Shown here: piece by piece, positions 2,866 through 29,130 of the stretch
Position numbering within the stretch: position 1 is the first letter of the stretch
Layout: the number at the start of each line of letters is the position of its first letter
Origin: a virus
DNA: 29,130 nt
IMG/VR virus record: IMGVR_UViG_3300012005_000039
Coordinates: 1 to 29,130 of that record
Strand: one strand, 5' to 3'
Made by a program: the position numbers and the translations under genes
The notes under the pieces: model-generated
What the model was told of the DNA's origin: nothing
The model's database searches: none
Seen by the model: the letters and a program-made list of their open reading frames with translations, nothing else

Positions 2866-5087
2866 TGGGCGTACAATACGATCGCACTTCACCTGTCTAT
2901 GACAACACCACCGTAGATAACATTAGCCAACAGTCCGGTGTGATTGATAAGCTGCCCAGTCTGTCCTTAGACATCTCCGACGCAGATATCATCAAGAACC
3001 TCGACTTCCGTATCAATGAATCACGTGACTACTGGAACGATGCTAAAGGCTTTGACCTTAAGAATGTTCGTAACGAGAACGTTCGCTACCATCTCGGTAA
3101 GATTGACGAGGCTGGCCTGTACAAGCACCAGAAAGCCTATAAAGAGAACCAGATATTCTTAGGCGAAGAGAGTATCACAGCCTATGTCACAGCGCAGATA
3201 GCTGGCCCGGTTGTCATACCAGCTAGTAAGGAAGACCGCAGCAAGCTGTTCGCTGGTGATCTTGAGAAAGCTATTAAGGCGCATGGTGAGGATGTTGTTG
3301 ACCTAGAACGCATCATTGAGTTATCGGTACGTAACATCCGCCTCAAGAGAATTAGCGTTATTAAGTTTCGTTACGACAAGCTTTACGGCAAGCATGGCGA
3401 GATAATCAGCGAGGCAATCAACCCGGAACACATTATCCTTGACAAGAACACCGCATTAGGTGGCAATCCAGCGTTTGTCTGTCACGTGCTGAAGAAGTCG
3501 GTTGATGAACTGCTGGCTGAGTATCCGAGCAAGGCTAAAGAAATACAGAAGAAGCTAGGTATCCAGCGCAAGACCACTAAGCAGATGAGCCAAGAGATAG
3601 CCGTAAGGGAAGTCTGGGTCACACACTACGTAGGTAATAAGCCAGTCGAGGGCGTTGTTTGGTACTTTGAAGACTTGGTGCTTGAGAAAGATCGTAACCC
3701 GAACTGGTTATATGCTAGTGAGAATCTGAACCTGCTTAAGTTCCCTAAGAAGCCGTTTATCTTTGGTAACTTAGTCAACTACGGCGACCACCTGATTGAT
3801 GACACATCGCCAGTTGAGCAGGCTATCGAACAGCAGAAAGTGCTTAACCGGCTCGGTCGGCAGATTGGTGAAGTCGCGGCTAAGGCTAACGGTATGCTGG
3901 TTATCTCAACTGATAGCGGTCTGACTAAGGATGATGCCCAGAACTTAACCGGCGACCCTAACCAGAAGCTGGTCATTAAGACCAACGGACAGGCTGTTGA
4001 CCAGCTAGTACATCAGATACAAGCCCAAGAATTACCTGACTTCATCGCTAATAGTAAGATTGATGCCCGTATGCAGGTTGGCAACTTACTAGGTGCGCCG
4101 ACTGACTTTACAGGTTCGCAGGCTGATGACGGCGACCCGACACTGGGCGAGGTTATGGTTAAGAAGAATCAGTCAAGCGGTATACAGGACAAGATGGTGC
4201 GGGCCATTACCCGTATGTTGGGCGATTACTACGAGTACCTAGTCCAGATGATGATTGTCTGGTACGACGAAGAGCACAGCTTTGTCCATGATTCGGGTGA
4301 CGGTGAGTTTGATTATGTGACCCTGAAGCGTGGCCTGGTTGAAGAGGGCATCCGTGTTAAGGCCGGTAAGCCTGCCAGCCCTGATCGTAGCCGTGTTGAG
4401 GCTATCGTGATGAAGTTACTTGATAAAGAAGCTATTAGCTTACTGGACGCTTACAAGCAACTGCAACTCGATAATCCGCAACAGCTATATGACAACTGGG
4501 CTAAACAGAAAGCTGACCCGATGAGTCTAGCCCGTGACGCACTAGACATTGTTGATGAGTCTGAGGCGTACGTAGTCTATCAAGATATCATGGCAGGCCA
4601 GAAAGTTGATAAAAAAGAGAATCCTGAAAAAGAATACGTCTTGGCCTTGCGTAAGTTAATGCTTAACGATGACTTTATTCACGCTAAGAAAGACAAGCAA
4701 AAGAAGTTCTTAGATTACGTTAACGAGTGTCTGGACAGCTTAGAAGTCCGTACAGAGCTTGACATGGCTACTGATACAGAACCTGCTGCTCAAGCATTAC
4801 GTCCTAGTACACCGCTGCCACCATTGCAGCCACCGATGCAGCCGGGCATGGGCCAACCTGGCATGGGCCAACCTGGCATGGGCCAACCTGGCATGATACC
4901 ACCGCCACAAATGGGTCAACCTCAAGGTATGCCGATGCAAGCTCCCCCTATGCAACCACCCCCAATGATGCCTCCACAAGGCCCCCCGATGGGTATGCCA
5001 CCACAACAGCCACCAATGACACCACAAAGCGTGTTCGCTGGTGGACTACCGCCCGAAGGTAGTATTCAACCGCCCCCTATGGGATAA
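2865..5087 (+). CDS. Portal protein with Pro/Gln/Met-rich tail
   Basis: This 740-residue protein would form the dodecameric portal through which DNA enters and leaves the capsid. Its place between the large terminase and the scaffold, its size and its sequence style support this: an acidic N-terminus; a central region with IINPEHIILD-type and AFVCHVLKKSVDELLAEYP segments; and a long helical stem region around residues 320-350 (SPVEQAIEQQKVLNRLGRQ). Residues about 640-740 form a low-complexity Pro/Gln/Met/Gly tail that includes three exact GMGQP repeats. This tail is not typical of the portal core and may be disordered. I cannot assign a specific portal subfamily with confidence. Confidence 0.85.
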   Translation: MGVQYDRTSPVYDNTTVDNISQQSGVIDKLPSLSLDISDADIIKNLDFRINESRDYWNDAKGFDLKNVRNENVRYHLGKIDEAGLYKHQKAYKENQIFLGEESITAYVTAQIAGPVVIPASKEDRSKLFAGDLEKAIKAHGEDVVDLERIIELSVRNIRLKRISVIKFRYDKLYGKHGEIISEAINPEHIILDKNTALGGNPAFVCHVLKKSVDELLAEYPSKAKEIQKKLGIQRKTTKQMSQEIAVREVWVTHYVGNKPVEGVVWYFEDLVLEKDRNPNWLYASENLNLLKFPKKPFIFGNLVNYGDHLIDDTSPVEQAIEQQKVLNRLGRQIGEVAAKANGMLVISTDSGLTKDDAQNLTGDPNQKLVIKTNGQAVDQLVHQIQAQELPDFIANSKIDARMQVGNLLGAPTDFTGSQADDGDPTLGEVMVKKNQSSGIQDKMVRAITRMLGDYYEYLVQMMIVWYDEEHSFVHDSGDGEFDYVTLKRGLVEEGIRVKAGKPASPDRSRVEAIVMKLLDKEAISLLDAYKQLQLDNPQQLYDNWAKQKADPMSLARDALDIVDESEAYVVYQDIMAGQKVDKKENPEKEYVLALRKLMLNDDFIHAKKDKQKKFLDYVNECLDSLEVRTELDMATDTEPAAQALRPSTPLPPLQPPMQPGMGQPGMGQPGMGQPGMIPPPQMGQPQGMPMQAPPMQPPPMMPPQGPPMGMPPQQPPMTPQSVFAGGLPPEGSIQPPPMG
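4845..4889 (+). repeat. Triple 15-bp tandem repeat in portal gene
   Basis: Three perfect copies of GGCATGGGCCAACCT lie in frame, each coding for Gly-Met-Gly-Gln-Pro. Related degenerate Pro/Met/Gln codons continue to the end of the gene. Exact identity at the DNA level suggests recent slippage expansion. Confidence 0.95.
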
Positions 5088-10601: not shown

Positions 10602-13073
10602 ATGGGCACTGTCTTTGATCCATTGCTTGGACAGTTGCGTACTACTGACCCGAATAAACGCACGACCCGCTTCATAGTTGCCCCTTTCGGCGATACCCGT
10701 CCAGCTGACTACACCTGTGCCAATAACACCGCTAATGACGTCGAGATAAACGCGGCCATAGTGGCCGCCAACGCCCTGACTAATGGCGGTATTGTTGACC
10801 TGCTAGACGGTACATTTACTCTGGGTGCGTCAGTCGTGCCGCTTAATAATGTTTGGCTAAGGGGTCAAGGCATGTTCCAGACTAAGGTGACGACCGTCAG
10901 CGGTTCAACCTTTGGCATACTGGACAACTATAGTACTTATAACTCAACTACGCCCTACACTAACGGCATTATCTCCGACATGGAACTCGATGGCAGTAAC
11001 ATGCTCAACACCAATGGTAAAAAAGGCTTCAACGCTTCCTCTCTTAAAGACTGTAAGTTGATGCGCCTCAACGTCCACGACACGACTGCTACCGGCCTTG
11101 GGGCTGATGATTATACCGGCGTGACTATTACCGAGTGTATCGTCCAGCGTTGCGGTTTCAGTAAAGTCGCTGCTATCACCGTTATGGCCTACACCGCTAA
11201 TACGTTCTCTGCGACTACCGGTACAGCCCACGGTTATTCAGTTGGCGATTACATTGTCATAACCGGTATGGTGCCGGTGGGGTACAATGGTGTCTTCAGG
11301 GTGACTAGTGTACCGACGACTACTACTTTCACGGTTGATACCAGCAACAACTCCGGCAACTTACAGCTATCCGTAAACCCCGGCACAGCTACCACTTTTG
11401 GCCAGATTTCTGCCTCAATTCTAGGCTGTAATGGTATCGGTATCGCCTCCGGGTCTAATACTGCCGAATACATGGTGATTAGTAATAATATCTGTATCGG
11501 CAACCAGAACAACAACTTCTTAATCGAGGCTGATAACGTCGGTACTGGAAATACAGCTTCCTACATCTTCTCTGATAACATCTCGATTAACGGCGGCCAA
11601 GCTGGCTACCGCAACACAGGTACGCCAAACGTCCAGTTCAACAATAACTATGATTATGGGTCGTTGATTAGTTGTTTCGTTGGGGTAACCAATATCAGTA
11701 AGACTCTGACGGCTTCCTCGTGGACAGCTTCAGTAGCTACTTATACCACTAGTGCCGTCCATGGCTTCTCGGTTGGGCAGTATGTCACGGTCTCTGGTGT
11801 TACCCCCGCCGGTTATAACGGCTACTTCTATATAGCTAGTACGCCGACTACTACAACCTTTACCGTAGCTATGGCGGTTGACCCGGTTGGAGCCGGTACG
11901 GTTTTTGGCAGTTCCCAGGTCGTAGGGCATGCTGTTGACGGTACGCAGATCAACCACAACGTCTTCACCAATCCTATCCTCTATGGTATCCAGATTTTCG
12001 CTCACTCCGACGGCGTTAGTGCTAGGGGTAATACGATTAAGAATGGCACTTTCTACGGTATCTACGCTGGCAGCGGTTACGGCACGATTGCTGGCAACCG
12101 CATCTACGGCAATGGCTATGACGGCATCGAGATTATCACTGGCGGTAACTACCAGCCGCTCGACTGTCTGGACGTGTCCGGCAACCTTATCTATAACAAC
12201 GGTACGCTAGACGCTCTCCATGACGGCATCAACGTTAACCCTAATGCTAACACCCCTATTACTAACCTGACACTGGCCAATAACCACTGTTTCGATAATC
12301 AGAACACCAAGACCCAGCGGTACGGTATCTATCTGCGAAGCGGTAGTGCCCTGGCTAACTGTAGCGTCGTCGGCGGCGCTCTGTCTGGGAACTTGACTAA
12401 CCCGATACTCATATCAAATACCAGTACAACAATCTCAGTTTTAGGTGTTTCTGGCACCAGTAATGTTGGTTTTAGCCTCGGTACAGTTAATAGTTTAATC
12501 GTCACCACTCCAAGCGGTGGCAACGCTACCTCACTAGCCATTACTCAGAGTGATACTACTAATAACCCAACGGCTGAACTCATCACGAACAACGGTACAG
12601 GCATGGGCTTAGATATTATCCAAAACGGAATTCTGGCTTCTAACAAATTTGCCCTGTACGTCAACAGTAATGCTGTCAATACCAACTCACCTTTAGTTTG
12701 GCTTCGGTCAACTAATGCTAGTACCACTGGAGCTACTTTAAAAGTAGATAACGCTGGAACGGGTCCAGGACTAGATGTTAAGACTGGAGGTGTGTTAATT
12801 GAGGCTGGCAGTCTAACGCTTACTACTGGCAACAAATTAAGTATAGGCACCGGCACGAATGCTTCTATCGGAACTGCTGTGCTAGTAGCTGGTACGGTAA
12901 CCGTTTCAACAACTGCTGTAACAGCTAATTCAATCATTATGCTAACTTGTCAGCTAGTCGGTGGAACAGTAGGGGTACTATCTAAAGGTACTGTAGTAGC
13001 TGGAACATCTTTTGTAATCAATAGTTCAATTGCTACTGATACTAGCACTATCGGTTGGATAATTATTAACTAA
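10602..13073 (+). CDS. Beta-helical tail spike or fibre
   Basis: This 823-residue protein has an N-terminal segment (residues about 35-90, with ANDVEINAAIVAANALTNGG and DLLDGTFTLGASV) that is the usual start of a pectate-lyase-type right-handed beta-helix. Asn/Gly-rich coils follow (SNNICIGNQNNN, NNGTLDALHDGINVNPN). Two copies of an inserted domain lie at about 190-267 and 363-438. Each reads HG[YF]SVGxYxxxxGxxPxGYNGxF and then TPTTTTFTV-like. The last 75 residues (about 750-823) resemble a C-terminal domain common at the ends of phage tail proteins. It probably binds and may cut host surface polysaccharide; no catalytic residues are identified. GGAG upstream supports the start. Confidence 0.8.
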   Translation: MGTVFDPLLGQLRTTDPNKRTTRFIVAPFGDTRPADYTCANNTANDVEINAAIVAANALTNGGIVDLLDGTFTLGASVVPLNNVWLRGQGMFQTKVTTVSGSTFGILDNYSTYNSTTPYTNGIISDMELDGSNMLNTNGKKGFNASSLKDCKLMRLNVHDTTATGLGADDYTGVTITECIVQRCGFSKVAAITVMAYTANTFSATTGTAHGYSVGDYIVITGMVPVGYNGVFRVTSVPTTTTFTVDTSNNSGNLQLSVNPGTATTFGQISASILGCNGIGIASGSNTAEYMVISNNICIGNQNNNFLIEADNVGTGNTASYIFSDNISINGGQAGYRNTGTPNVQFNNNYDYGSLISCFVGVTNISKTLTASSWTASVATYTTSAVHGFSVGQYVTVSGVTPAGYNGYFYIASTPTTTTFTVAMAVDPVGAGTVFGSSQVVGHAVDGTQINHNVFTNPILYGIQIFAHSDGVSARGNTIKNGTFYGIYAGSGYGTIAGNRIYGNGYDGIEIITGGNYQPLDCLDVSGNLIYNNGTLDALHDGINVNPNANTPITNLTLANNHCFDNQNTKTQRYGIYLRSGSALANCSVVGGALSGNLTNPILISNTSTTISVLGVSGTSNVGFSLGTVNSLIVTTPSGGNATSLAITQSDTTNNPTAELITNNGTGMGLDIIQNGILASNKFALYVNSNAVNTNSPLVWLRSTNASTTGATLKVDNAGTGPGLDVKTGGVLIEAGSLTLTTGNKLSIGTGTNASIGTAVLVAGTVTVSTTAVTANSIIMLTCQLVGGTVGVLSKGTVVAGTSFVINSSIATDTSTIGWIIIN

Positions 13074-23950: not shown

Positions 23951-25486
23951 TTAGTCTTTTTTCTCATCACGGTCAACAAGTATAATTCCGCTACTAGTGG
24001 TCAGCAACTTAGCCGCTACAGATGCAGCATTAGTAATAACTTCTTTGACAACTAATGCAGGGTCAACCACGCCAGCTTTAATCAGGTCAACTGGCTTGTC
24101 GGTCACTTTACGCAGATTGAAGCCGTAGTTAAGCGGTGCTTCCTGGACAAGTGTTAAAAGTTTCTCTGAGTTATAGCCACCGTTACTAGCAAGCTGCTTA
24201 AAAGGTGCTTCAAAAGCCTCTGTAAAACCGACATTTAAGCGGGCAAGGGTAGTACCACCACCCGCTACTATGCCGTCCTTGAGTGCGGCTTGTGAGGCTG
24301 CTACCGCATCAATTACCCGGAGCTTTACTTCTCTTTGTTCGATTTCGCTTGCTCCACCAACTCTAATAATTGCTACTTTGCCAGTGAGCCAGCTAAGTCG
24401 CTTACGGATCATTTCAATGTCAATCGGACTACTAGCCGCTGCTAGTTGTATCTGCAAGTCTTTCACACGCTTGTCTACAGCCTCTGTGGCGCCGTCTGAG
24501 CCGAGTAAGGTCGTACTACTGGTACTTATCACTACTTTGGCAGCAAAGCCCAGCATATCGGCGTTAAACTCGTAGGCGTTCAAACCTTCAGTGATAACGG
24601 TTGCGCCAGTCAGTAGGGCTAAGTCTTCTAAGAAGAAGTTACGTGACTCATAGGGCGGGTCAACAATACTGACAATCATCTTGTTACTAAGCCGTTTCTG
24701 GACTAGGTAGGCAAGGGCATCACCGATAACTGACCCGATAACGACAATCTCTTTGAACTTATCTGGGATAGCCTCGAAGATTTCGTCGGCCTCGACCTGT
24801 GACGATAGTTGCTTATCGAGTATCAGAATTGGTACGTTGAAGTGTTTACTCTCTAGGTTGGCCGGGTCTTTGGCTAGGTAGGCTGAGATTAGACCTTTAC
24901 GGAAGTAAAAGCCTTCAACAATCTCGTTATAGATACCACGACCAGCAAAGTCTTCAATGGTCACTCCCCCGTCAGCTCCGATTGAACCAATCGTATCGGC
25001 TACTAACTCGCCAATAGCATCGTCACCTGAACTAGTTGTGGCAACCTTAGCCAGCATCTTCGGATTAAGAGGTAACTTGATGCGGTCTATCTCAGCGACA
25101 GCTTTATCGGCGGCATCGACAATCTGCCGACTGACGACCATCTGATTATTACCAGCAGCCACCAGCTTACGGCCAGCCGTGTAGAAGTGATAGGCAAGAA
25201 TGACACTAGCAGTAGTACCATCGCCGACACTGACATCTGACCGCTTACTGGCTTGGGTAGCAATGGCAGCGGTGGCGTTTTCGATAGCATCTTCAAACTT
25301 TAGCTTACGGACGTTGTTCACACCATCTCGGCTTATCTCTGGGTCGCCATACGGGTACTCTATAAGGGCATTACCAGCATTCGGGCCGTATGACTCTTTG
25401 GCGACGTTATAGACCTTTAGAAAGCCGCTGTGTATCTTAGCGTGTAGTTCGTCGCCAAATACTACATCTCTAGTTAATTTTGACAT
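23951..25486 (-). CDS. groEL: GroEL-like chaperonin (Cpn60)
   Basis: This 511-residue group I chaperonin is read from ATG 25486. An upstream in-frame TTG at 25510 is rejected, because AGAGG precedes the ATG and MSKLTRDVVFG matches GroEL beginnings. Conserved nucleotide-pocket pieces are present: ESYGPNAG (31-38), ISRDGV with Asp54, GDGTT (88-92), the VIDAV Asp just before DGIVAGGGTTLARL, and GVVDPALVVKEVITNAASV near the end. The apical helices (QVEADEIFEAI, DALAYLVQKRL) keep the hydrophobic pattern that binds substrate and co-chaperonin. All three domains are represented. The C-terminus ends DRDEKKD without the usual GGM tail. It presumably folds phage proteins, possibly capsid protein. Confidence 0.93.
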   Translation of the reverse strand: MSKLTRDVVFGDELHAKIHSGFLKVYNVAKESYGPNAGNALIEYPYGDPEISRDGVNNVRKLKFEDAIENATAAIATQASKRSDVSVGDGTTASVILAYHFYTAGRKLVAAGNNQMVVSRQIVDAADKAVAEIDRIKLPLNPKMLAKVATTSSGDDAIGELVADTIGSIGADGGVTIEDFAGRGIYNEIVEGFYFRKGLISAYLAKDPANLESKHFNVPILILDKQLSSQVEADEIFEAIPDKFKEIVVIGSVIGDALAYLVQKRLSNKMIVSIVDPPYESRNFFLEDLALLTGATVITEGLNAYEFNADMLGFAAKVVISTSSTTLLGSDGATEAVDKRVKDLQIQLAAASSPIDIEMIRKRLSWLTGKVAIIRVGGASEIEQREVKLRVIDAVAASQAALKDGIVAGGGTTLARLNVGFTEAFEAPFKQLASNGGYNSEKLLTLVQEAPLNYGFNLRKVTDKPVDLIKAGVVDPALVVKEVITNAASVAAKLLTTSSGIILVDRDEKKD

Positions 25487-25769
25487 CTTCAAAACCTCTA
25501 ATATCTTCAAATTTTATAAAGCAAAACTGTTGACCATCACGCTTAATACGTGCGCCCTCTTTATATTCCTCGAAGTAGACTCGCTTACCAATAAACATTT
25601 CCCACATATGCTTTATGCCATCAAAACTTGCTGCTGGTATAGCTACTACTATCCCATTGGTACGGGTTTGATACTTGCCTTCTTTTACTTCGACTCTATC
25701 GAGTTTGATGAGTACACAATCGTTTACGGGAATAAGAGAGTGCTGGGCTGGTGTTTGGCCTGTGTGCAT
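25470..25769 (-). CDS. groES: GroES-like co-chaperonin (Cpn10)
   Basis: This 99-residue protein aligns by eye to GroES. SLIPVNDCVLIKLDRVEVKE corresponds to the first strand (PLHDRVIVKRKEVE). KYQTRTNGIVVAIPA is the mobile loop, with the IVV tripeptide in place of IVL. IGKRVYFEEYKEGARIKRDG and FCFIKFEDIRGFE match the C-terminal core. The roof region is altered (ASFDGIKHMWEM). It overlaps groEL by 17 bases, in the normal groES-groEL order. No Shine-Dalgarno is visible, and the predicted transcript starts about three bases before the ATG, so the message may be leaderless. It should cap the neighbouring chaperonin. Confidence 0.85.
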   Translation of the reverse strand: MHTGQTPAQHSLIPVNDCVLIKLDRVEVKEGKYQTRTNGIVVAIPAASFDGIKHMWEMFIGKRVYFEEYKEGARIKRDGQQFCFIKFEDIRGFEDVKIN

Positions 25770-27379: not shown

Positions 27380-27834
27380 TGGACAGATATATTAACCTAG
27401 CGCATCAGGTATATGCATACGCATTAAGCATACCGACCAGCAGTTACTACACGTTCGGCTTGATAGCCGGTGGCGCAATTGCCTCTAGCGGTCTTGTCGA
27501 GCTGTATAAGCGGCATTACAACGTCAAGAAGCAAGAAGCCCTAGCTAAGAACGCTACGGCCTACCTACTGACCGCTGCGTCGTTTGTGTTCACGTTTGCG
27601 GCTGGCGTAATCCAGTACGGTAGCGTTAACCCTAACTTCCTAGGCAGTCATACGCTACAGGTAGTCGGTTTCGCGTTTGTGATTTACCACTTTGGCATGA
27701 GTGCCGGATATAAAAAGATAGCAAAAATAGTAGGAAGCTGGGTGTCAAATGCATCAAGTTATAAGGCGGAAACTGCAGCAATCCCTGCTGTACCTGTTGA
27801 GCCAGTCGTTACACCAGTAGACCCGTTAATCTAA
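27379..27834 (+). CDS. Holin-like membrane protein
   Basis: A 151-residue protein has three hydrophobic segments, at about residues 23-43 (YYTFGLIAGGAIASSGLVEL), 58-79 (ATAYLLTAASFVFTFAAGVI) and 90-111 (HTLQVVGFAFVIYHFGMSAG), then a Pro/Val-rich tail. Such a layout next to an endolysin fits a class I-type holin, which would open the inner membrane. It overlaps the endolysin stop (TAATG), with AAGGAG upstream. Its last nine bases overlap the convergent minus-strand gene. Confidence 0.65.
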   Translation: MDRYINLAHQVYAYALSIPTSSYYTFGLIAGGAIASSGLVELYKRHYNVKKQEALAKNATAYLLTAASFVFTFAAGVIQYGSVNPNFLGSHTLQVVGFAFVIYHFGMSAGYKKIAKIVGSWVSNASSYKAETAAIPAVPVEPVVTPVDPLI

Positions 27835-28047
27835 TATAGAACTGATTAGCGCACAGTCACCGATACGACAATCATTAGCCGACTGTCGGTGCTGTTGCTT
27901 AACGTGTCCGTGAATCAGTCTGCCCCGTTCACTACGTATAAAGGCGTAGACTATCTTCTCGAAATGATTAACTGACCACATAATAGCGTGGACAATCGAA
28001 TAAAGTACCAGTGAAGTGACTATCTCATTAGTAGTTATTAGAATCAT
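27826..28047 (-). CDS. Small unknown protein with hydrophobic N-terminus
   Basis: A 73-residue frame begins MILITTNEIVTSLVLYSIVH. It has one hydrophobic segment at the start and a basic His/Arg/Gln-rich rear (FIRSERGRLIHGHVKQQHRQ). It is 21 bases downstream of the spanin-like gene in the leftward block. No Shine-Dalgarno is apparent, and its 3' end overlaps the holin-like gene by nine bases. It may be real, but support is modest. Confidence 0.45.
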   Translation of the reverse strand: MILITTNEIVTSLVLYSIVHAIMWSVNHFEKIVYAFIRSERGRLIHGHVKQQHRQSANDCRIGDCALISSILD

Positions 28048-28068
28048 GTTTTTGTTTTTAAGTTGTTA

Positions 28069-28380
28069 TTACTTACAAGCGTTGACGGGTACGGTGACTA
28101 AGCCACGGGTAGCTTTAGCTTGGGCTAGTGTTAAAACATAGTCACAAACAGCCTTTTTATCACTAGTCAGCTTAGTAATAGTAGCGGTCTGAACGGTTGA
28201 TAGTTCGACTCTTGCCTTTTCTGCGTCACTGGCAATCTTAGCGACTGCGGCATTGTGCTGGTTTACGCTTACTCTGTGTTGCTCGTACCTGACAGCTGAA
28301 TAGCTAAACAGGGCTAGGGCAACTAGCAAGCTTAAAGTTAATAGTGTGAATGATTTTTTGGTTGTTTTACTCATAAGCAT
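28069..28380 (-). CDS. Spanin-like single-span protein
   Basis: A 103-residue protein has a Lys-rich N-terminus, one membrane segment (FTLLTLSLLVALALFSYSAV, about 11-30) and a heptad-like helix (NAAVAKIASDAEKARVELST). Two Cys follow near the C-terminus (AVCDYV and NACK), a possible disulfide. This is the layout of inner-membrane Rz-type spanins, and the gene is close to the endolysin and holin. An alternative ATG two codons in (28374) is possible. The function is inferred from architecture only. Confidence 0.55.
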   Translation of the reverse strand: MLMSKTTKKSFTLLTLSLLVALALFSYSAVRYEQHRVSVNQHNAAVAKIASDAEKARVELSTVQTATITKLTSDKKAVCDYVLTLAQAKATRGLVTVPVNACK

Positions 28381-28388
28381 AATATAAC

Positions 28389-28625
28389 TTACTTGCTATC
28401 CAACTCCAATTCTTTATCAGCCTTAGCCTGTTCTTCCTTATATATATCCCGCCAACGTTCAATCGTGGCACGAGCTACTTTGAAAGCCCGTGCCAGATTT
28501 GATACGTTGACTTCAGCCTCGACTAGGATAGCGAAGACTTTATAGCCTAGCCCTCTATGTTTGCTCTGCGTACCTTGCAGATAGACCTCAAGGCCATCGT
28601 CAGATATGCGTTTATGTTTAATCAT
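28389..28625 (-). CDS. Helix-turn-helix protein
   Basis: This 78-residue protein has a central VEAEVNVSNLARAFKVARAT followed by IERWRDIYKEE, a well-formed helix-turn-helix with the recognition helix on VARATIERW. The N-terminal stretch (MIKHKRISDDGLEVYLQGTQ) is basic, and the C-terminal is a charged helix. AAGGG lies before the ATG. It lies between the Gly-Tyr protein and the spanin-like gene. It may be a small transcription regulator or a DNA-packaging adaptor. The target is unknown; the palindromes at 22889-22945 are one candidate. Confidence 0.65.
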   Translation of the reverse strand: MIKHKRISDDGLEVYLQGTQSKHRGLGYKVFAILVEAEVNVSNLARAFKVARATIERWRDIYKEEQAKADKELELDSK

Positions 28626-28669
28626 ATTACTTACCCTTATAACAGATTATGGATTGCTTGTACATTAAA

Positions 28670-28924
28670 TTACCAGCCGTCGCCGTAGCCGTAGCCGTAG
28701 CCGTAGCCGTCGCCGTAGCCGTCGCCGTAGCCGTCGCCGTAGCCGTCGCCGTAGCCGTAGCCGTAGCCGTCGCCGTAGCCGTAGCCGTAGCCGTAGCCGT
28801 CGCCGTAGCCGTTGCCGTAGCCGTTGCCGTAGCCGTAGCCGTAGCCGTCGCCGTAGCCGCCTTTAATACCAGCGGTTTGGCTATCTTCGCCTAGGCTAGC
28901 AACTATGTGAGTTGCTAAGGCCAT
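28670..28924 (-). CDS. Gly-Tyr dipeptide-repeat protein
   Basis: An 84-residue protein has a 22-residue unique head (MALATHIVASLGEDSQTAGI, then KG). It is followed by a Gly, 30 X-Gly dipeptides and a terminal Trp. X is Tyr 20 times, Asp eight times and Asn twice. The start ATG overlaps the stop of the upstream gene (TGATG), strong support that this strand, not the Ala-Val frame opposite, is coding. No family is certain. I recall similar low-complexity Gly/Tyr/Asp proteins beside related phage genes, but this is unverified. The tail may be disordered or sticky. Confidence 0.7.
   Translation of the reverse strand: MALATHIVASLGEDSQTAGIKGGYGDGYGYGYGNGYGNGYGDGYGYGYGYGDGYGYGYGDGYGDGYGDGYGDGYGYGYGYGDGW
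28676..28855. repeat. Hexamer minisatellite, 30 units
   Basis: About 180 bp of GCCGTN (read on the plus strand) varies only at the last base (A, C or A/T-type). On the minus strand each unit is (T/G/A)ACGGC, coding Tyr, Asp or Asn followed by Gly. Slippage can add or remove units in frame. Confidence 0.95.
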
Positions 28925-29130
28925 CAGGATAACTCGCTATCCCACTTTTTGTCGTCACAGGTAACAGTGGCAACAACTGTTAAAATGTGGAACTCAACAT
29001 GGCCCGCTTTATCTAATTTAGTGCCTGCTTGCTTACCAGCTAACGCCAGTTCGCCCAAGCCTTTAGTTGTTCCCCATTGGCGAATAACATAGGCATTTTC
29101 TAGGGTGCAGATATCATCTTTTTTAGAGTA
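28924..29130 (-). CDS. Unknown phage protein, 5'-truncated (DUF6948-like?)
   Basis: An open frame enters from the right edge on the minus strand and ends at TGA 28926-28924. The visible 68 residues contain CTLENAYVIRQWGTTKGLGE, then LALAGKQAGTKLDKAGHVEF, and VATVTCD, a beta-rich pattern. From memory it resembles the C-terminal half of the DUF6948 family of small phage proteins, but this was not checked. The stop overlaps the start of the Gly-Tyr protein, so the two are coupled. Its start lies outside the window. Confidence 0.6.
   Translation of the reverse strand, partial: YSKKDDICTLENAYVIRQWGTTKGLGELALAGKQAGTKLDKAGHVEFHILTVVATVTCDDKKWDSELS

Follow-up and report, generated by a model that had tools for sequence, protein, structure and literature searches.

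The Gly-X array open reading frame (ORF) near one end of a tailed-phage record is a real gene; it is the second half of a two-gene phage cassette and one copy of a cassette that is widespread among phages. The gene ahead of it encodes a small protein that is confidently predicted by structural modeling to be Sm/LSm-like by fold, and comparative sequence evidence makes it very probable that the array ORF is translated together with this partner. For the pair we favor a putative self-associating, condensate-type role, to which we give a probability of roughly 0.45. The window, meaning the whole 29,130-nucleotide stretch analyzed here, is a linear IMG/VR record (IMGVR_UViG_3300012005_000039); its genes for a terminase, an SU10-type portal, and an adaptor mark a tailed phage.

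On the minus strand of the window, the array ORF (28670 to 28924, ATG to TAA) encodes 84 amino acids, namely, a 22-residue head, MALATHIVASLGEDSQTAGIKG (28859 to 28924, minus strand), followed by (Gly-X)n. The repeat itself (28673 to 28858, minus strand) has a TRF score of 300, the top repeat score in the window, and consists of 31 hexamers: 20 GGCTAC, 8 GGCGAC, 2 GGCAAC, and 1 terminal GGCTGG encoding Gly-Trp. A sequence-only reading of the same DNA had described a 30-unit X-Gly tail with 20 Tyr, 8 Asp, and 2 Asn residues; these residue counts are correct, and the number of units is 31 with the terminal Gly-Trp. Its description of a hexamer with a single variable base also holds, the pattern being GGC-NAC (N is T, G, or A) throughout except in the last unit. 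The TGATG overlap with the neighboring gene to which it had drawn attention lies at 28922 to 28926 (minus strand), where the A of the array ATG is the final base of the partner gene's TGA, so that stop and start share one base; overlap or near contact of the two genes is conserved in the family. The partner gene occupies 28924 to 29130 (minus strand), with its 5' end beyond the contig, and the window holds just its last 68 codons. No Rfam families were found in positions 27800 to 29130, and matches to Pfam TrAA12 and KRTAP and to serine-rich NCBIfam entries reflect composition only and fall below the cut-off. A diversity-generating retroelement target, which would show adenine-directed changes along the whole variable repeat, was also considered and rejected, because variation is confined to the first base of codon X and the second-position adenine is constant except in the last unit.

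A chance origin of the array ORF is excluded by a syntenic homologue in a related phage, L003, whose GroEL was found at 74% identity in a GroEL search and whose gene order is that of the window. The L003 array ORF (L003:4525-4845) has the same head core, IVASLGEDSQ, carries 41 units that are mostly Gly-Asn, and likewise ends in Gly-Trp. The partner gene is complete in L003 (L003:4194-4523, 109 amino acids), and its product shares 91% identity with the window's fragment.

When the array protein itself served as the tblastn query for confirmation, 0 of 600 pattern-found stretches were confirmed, probably because of low-complexity masking. This problem was avoided by using the upstream partner protein as the query in place of the low-complexity array. 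Partner homologues occur in 115 records of Rheinheimera "Barba" phages, in Rhodobacter phage RcapNL, in Eggerthella phage PMBT5, and in uncultured phages, and a profile scan of IMG/VR found 197 relatives, of which the best 80 were examined. A first scan of these 80 loci detected a Gly-X run downstream of the partner at 75, and at the remaining 5 the contigs stop 1 to 69 nt past the partner gene. Contigs ending right behind the partner (L152, L182, L192, L196, and L220) suggest that arrays break short-read assemblies and that the cassette is undercounted. In a strict recount of the 73 IMG/VR loci with an identifiable partner stop, an array ORF lies no more than 300 nt downstream at 70 loci, arrays occur 0.9 to 2.4 kb downstream at 4 loci, and 0 arrays were found in 103 kb of upstream flank. 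These IMG/VR counts describe the best 80 of 197 relatives from the profile scan and, for the pattern scan, the matches listed.

Named phages that infect Rheinheimera, Rhodobacter, and Eggerthella show the same pairing. Among 84,980 bacterial and archaeal species, there were 14 partner-family matches, mostly on metagenome-assembled contigs, with a Gly-X-rich ORF at 11 of the 14 (2 of these 11 degenerate and distant), and we regard the partner family as essentially viral. Several tandem head-plus-array genes stand behind a single partner gene in L175, L189, L195, and L197. The nameable neighbors of the cassette are mostly recombination, replication, and DNA methylation genes, each match covering few loci. 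An accessory block, as the location had first been described, fits loosely; in relatives, the pair is surrounded by genes for recombination and replication.

Coupling to the upstream gene is conserved far beyond the window phage in which it had been proposed. The array ORF usually begins before the partner gene has ended; starts 15, 18, or 21 nt ahead of the partner's last base are common, and SD-like bases precede 39 of 54 overlapping array starts. The context of the partner's invariant C-terminal Trp codon yields ATG or GTG in 70 of 73 loci, a supply of start codons that is partly automatic because Lys codons end in A or G. At three loci (L019, L158, and L198), partner and array are joined in one reading frame. 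The L019 fusion combines a clear DUF6948 domain (Pfam E value of 1.1e-22, 80.4 bits) with 43 Gly-X units, and in L158 and L198 the partner is joined to shorter arrays that are degenerate or less regular. Two DUF6948-type proteins related to L019 (L237 and L238) have an array ORF directly behind them. The fusions are an argument for joint action of the two products and for translation of the array. Translation, which had been proposed from the start overlap, is further supported by retention of the Gly-X frame despite different synonymous codons.

The partner family matches Pfam PF22253 (DUF6948, a phage domain of unknown function) weakly, with 32 of 60 members at an E value of ≤0.01 and a best value of 1e-5. 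Against a gathering cut-off of 27 bits, the RcapNL homologue reaches 22.5 bits, and the L003 partner has no match at an E value of 1. The branch to which the window belongs falls under the gathering score and is therefore called DUF6948-related, whereas L019, L237, and L238 have DUF6948-type domains accompanied by arrays. An AlphaFold2 model of the full-length L003 partner, based on a 60-sequence alignment, has a pLDDT of 89.5 and predicts a five-stranded Sm-type barrel, from which the fold of the window fragment is taken. The top 50 Foldseek matches to this model were nearly all Sm/LSm proteins, including PDB 3by7 (Sm-like, from an uncultured source; E value of 2.8e-4), which was also the best match in VIA-align at a modest Z score of 8.7 (rmsd of 2.6 over 72 aligned residues). 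The resemblance to Sm/LSm proteins, archaeal SmAP among them, extends to the Gly-x4-Gly spacing, with the Sm1 form RG-x4-G present in 60 of 60 partners. However, the RNA-contacting signatures Sm1 Asp-x3-Asn and Sm2 Arg-Gly are not conserved in the partner consensus, a helix is inserted between strands 3 and 4, and no sequence match of the partner to a solved Sm protein was found. Weak PDB sequence matches to an SSB (3tqy; E value of 0.31) and an acetyltransferase (1s3z; E value of 0.04) were set aside because the fold search points elsewhere.

Although the heads of the array proteins are short and variable, 35 of 59 contain the motif E-x(1,2)-[QH], present as EDSQ in the window, compared with a mean of 9.4 and a maximum of 19 in 1,000 shuffled trials. 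Such a motif, recurring next to a constant partner, suggests that the head may dock on the Sm-like protein. A leader followed by a Gly-rich repetitive core is also the layout of microcin-type precursors, and a short recurrent head ahead of a Gly-rich repetitive part could thus mark a precursor peptide that is modified or processed. We consider this very improbable, as no modifying enzyme was seen among the constant neighbors, the constant neighbor is instead a predicted Sm-fold protein, and the array is fused to that protein in three loci.

Across 63 arrays, position X is occupied by Tyr, Asp, Asn, and Ser at frequencies of 0.39, 0.30, 0.16, and 0.08, respectively. Among 63 nonredundant arrays adjoining a partner, the first base of X has a mean heterozygosity of 0.544, compared with 0.092 and 0.073 for the silent third bases of Gly and X, respectively; in all but one of these arrays (62 of 63), the first base of X is more variable than the third Gly base (Wilcoxon P value of 7e-11). 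A simple neutral simulation, in which units were gained and lost and mutation was uniform under a Tyr/Asp/Asn constraint, gave 0.51 and 0.61, with no excess for the first X base; this is a crude model, and the observed excess may owe something to codon preference. Which silent bases are fixed (CC, CT, AC, or GC) depends on the array, with Gly-X retained, which indicates that they are homogenized within an array and not dictated absolutely. The sole amino acid-changing base is the variable one, which points to selection on the residue mixture. The simplest reading is that fast turnover homogenizes the units while selection keeps Tyr mixed with Asp, Asn, or Ser. A C-terminal Trp is present in 12 of 71 array proteins, and Trp is rare elsewhere.

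The strong uniformity of five of the six hexamer positions could also be read as the mark of a microsatellite or structural element at the DNA level, with an accidental open frame and no protein use, and the opposite-strand Ala-Val frame of the window (28649 to 28894, plus strand) is open as well. We disfavor this explanation and rate its probability as minimal, since silent positions differ between arrays while Gly-X is kept, the start, SD-like bases, and overlap are conserved, and fusions exist. We judge the Ala-Val ORF itself to be a consequence of the repeat rather than a gene; its wobble positions fit the variable base, but it depends on GGC-NAC codons, and the frame is lost in arrays with other synonymous codons.

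Unit number varies in 6-bp steps, in agreement with the earlier expectation of length variation. Among seven sampled Barba isolates whose 1,182-nt flanks are identical, the array exists in six alleles, each with 29 or 30 units, and two more distant Barba isolates carry 34 and 36 units; these are short-read assemblies, the 125-bp paired reads of the 2019 Barba genomes are shorter than the array, and single alleles are provisional. L153 and L154 share 900 of 900 upstream bases and have 22 and 27 units, respectively. With the same short-read caveat, near-identical genomes that differ in unit number are the hallmark of a variable-number tandem repeat of the contingency type. The order of units as well as their number differs between viruses with identical flanks. 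All observed changes in unit number are multiples of 6 bp, which keeps the reading frame, and an on/off phase-variation locus was rejected for this reason. Downstream of position 2824 in L213, an array is interrupted by a short out-of-frame stretch, RWLRQLR, before the Gly-X frame resumes, reflecting either an assembly error or a compensated frameshift.

The tail of the L158 fusion is predicted to be disordered, with a pLDDT of about 48 to 65 and no secondary structure. Judged by this model and by composition, the tails resemble the disordered, low-complexity, aromatic and Gly-rich sequences of condensate-forming proteins. Prion-inspired (X-Tyr) peptides such as Ac-GYGYGYG-NH2 have the same dipeptide chemistry and self-assemble, the synthetic GYGYGYG peptide forming amyloid-like fibrils (PMC11093263, PMC10510724), so that a Tyr-Gly tail is plausibly sticky. 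These data come from short capped synthetic heptapeptides without Asp, whereas natural tails mix Tyr with Asp, Asn, and Ser. Sticky Tyr-Gly chemistry, the disordered L158 tail, and recombination and replication neighbors together lead us to favor an Sm-like scaffold with a self-associating tail that may gather nucleic acid or recombination proteins. The first gene would supply a small DUF6948-related protein with a predicted Sm/LSm-type barrel, and the second, translationally coupled gene would supply the disordered Gly-X tail behind its short head motif. The head would dock on the Sm-like protein, Tyr residues of many tails would attract one another weakly, and Asp, Asn, and Ser scattered between them would hold the assembly soluble or dynamic. 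The pair may thereby form a nucleic acid-associated cluster or condensate in the replication or recombination phase, and unit number, shifted by slippage or recombination in frame-preserving 6-bp steps, could tune its stickiness.

The fibril chemistry of GYGYGYG peptides (PMC11093263) and the silk-like alternation of Gly-X would also accommodate ordered fibers or sheets, either silk- or amyloid-like, serving as a structural polymer or glue. Tyr is systematically diluted by Asp, Asn, and Ser, which should oppose such order, and the L158 tail is predicted to be disordered, making fibers improbable. The main rival is instead a tail that acts as a soluble, disordered, multivalent bait on the Sm-like scaffold and binds or titrates a host regulator, nuclease, or defense sensor, in which case rapid array change would mirror an arms race. 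Tail disorder in the L158 model, fast allele turnover against identical flanks, the maintained residue mixture, and the location among early recombination and replication genes and DNA methyltransferases are consistent with a bait. However, an ordered tail motif would then be expected to be conserved, yet residue order is freely reshuffled, and phages whose hosts differ widely share one tail chemistry; we therefore consider a bait rather unlikely.

A broader form of the self-associating role is that many phages carry a ribonucleoprotein (RNP)-condensate cassette, in which a minimal Sm-type nucleic acid-binding protein and a coupled, fast-evolving Gly-Tyr/Asp/Asn polymer would bring together the phage's nucleic acid and its recombination proteins, and repeat number would be a material property open to rapid adjustment. 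We offer this extension tentatively and with some doubt. The array protein may be a phage counterpart of the sticky tails by which RNA-binding proteins are drawn into droplets. Yeast Lsm4 combines an Sm-type domain with a Q/N-rich low-complexity tail that is implicated in P-body and RNP granule assembly (PMC5087693). The likeness is one of layout, and we claim no homology; relative to Lsm4, the phage tail is composed of Gly-Tyr/Asp/Asn, is usually the product of its own coupled gene, and has a variable number of units.

Gly-X arrays also occur outside the cassette. Among the matches listed in the pattern scan, the partner is present at 54 of 96 arrays with at least 400 nt of upstream sequence; the approximately 44% without a partner lie within other proteins or contexts, which suggests that Gly-X tails also serve other proteins. 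Some Gly-X arrays are degenerate. Another small phage domain, with a motif like D-I-I-R-A-G-A-C-x-x-G-V, carries a Gly-X tail in the same ORF in L015, L025, L093, L095, L110, L114, and L032, and arrays lie within or ahead of unrelated phage proteins in L035, L055, L043, and L070.

The literature searched contained no description of Gly-Tyr repeat phage proteins, no link of DUF6948 to a Gly-X array, and no mention of DUF6948 itself, and the word "repeat" is absent from the Barba phage paper. The arrays are of low complexity, are filtered by search programs, and often lie at contig ends, an annotation blind spot that conceals a conserved phage system; array proteins are annotated as "hypothetical" or even as "lamprin." The cassette offers a small, cultivable test of viral low-complexity protein use in Rheinheimera and Rhodobacter phages; the pairing is established by fusions that occur in nature, and near-identical isolates with different array lengths supply a series ready for use. 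Homogenized silent positions set against a maintained residue mixture also give an unusually clear indication that selection acts on what a disordered protein is composed of.

Elsewhere in the window, a phage-encoded GroEL (519 amino acids) and a GroES-like protein are found at 23951 to 25769 (minus strand). A beta-helix protein at 10602 to 13073 (plus strand) has a K1-lyase_C C-terminal domain (Pfam E value of 1.2e-22) and is a likely tailspike. A perfect 15-bp tandem repeat of 3.4 copies at 4845 to 4895 (plus strand) encodes GMGQP repeats in the Pro/Met/Gln-rich C terminus of a portal-like protein.
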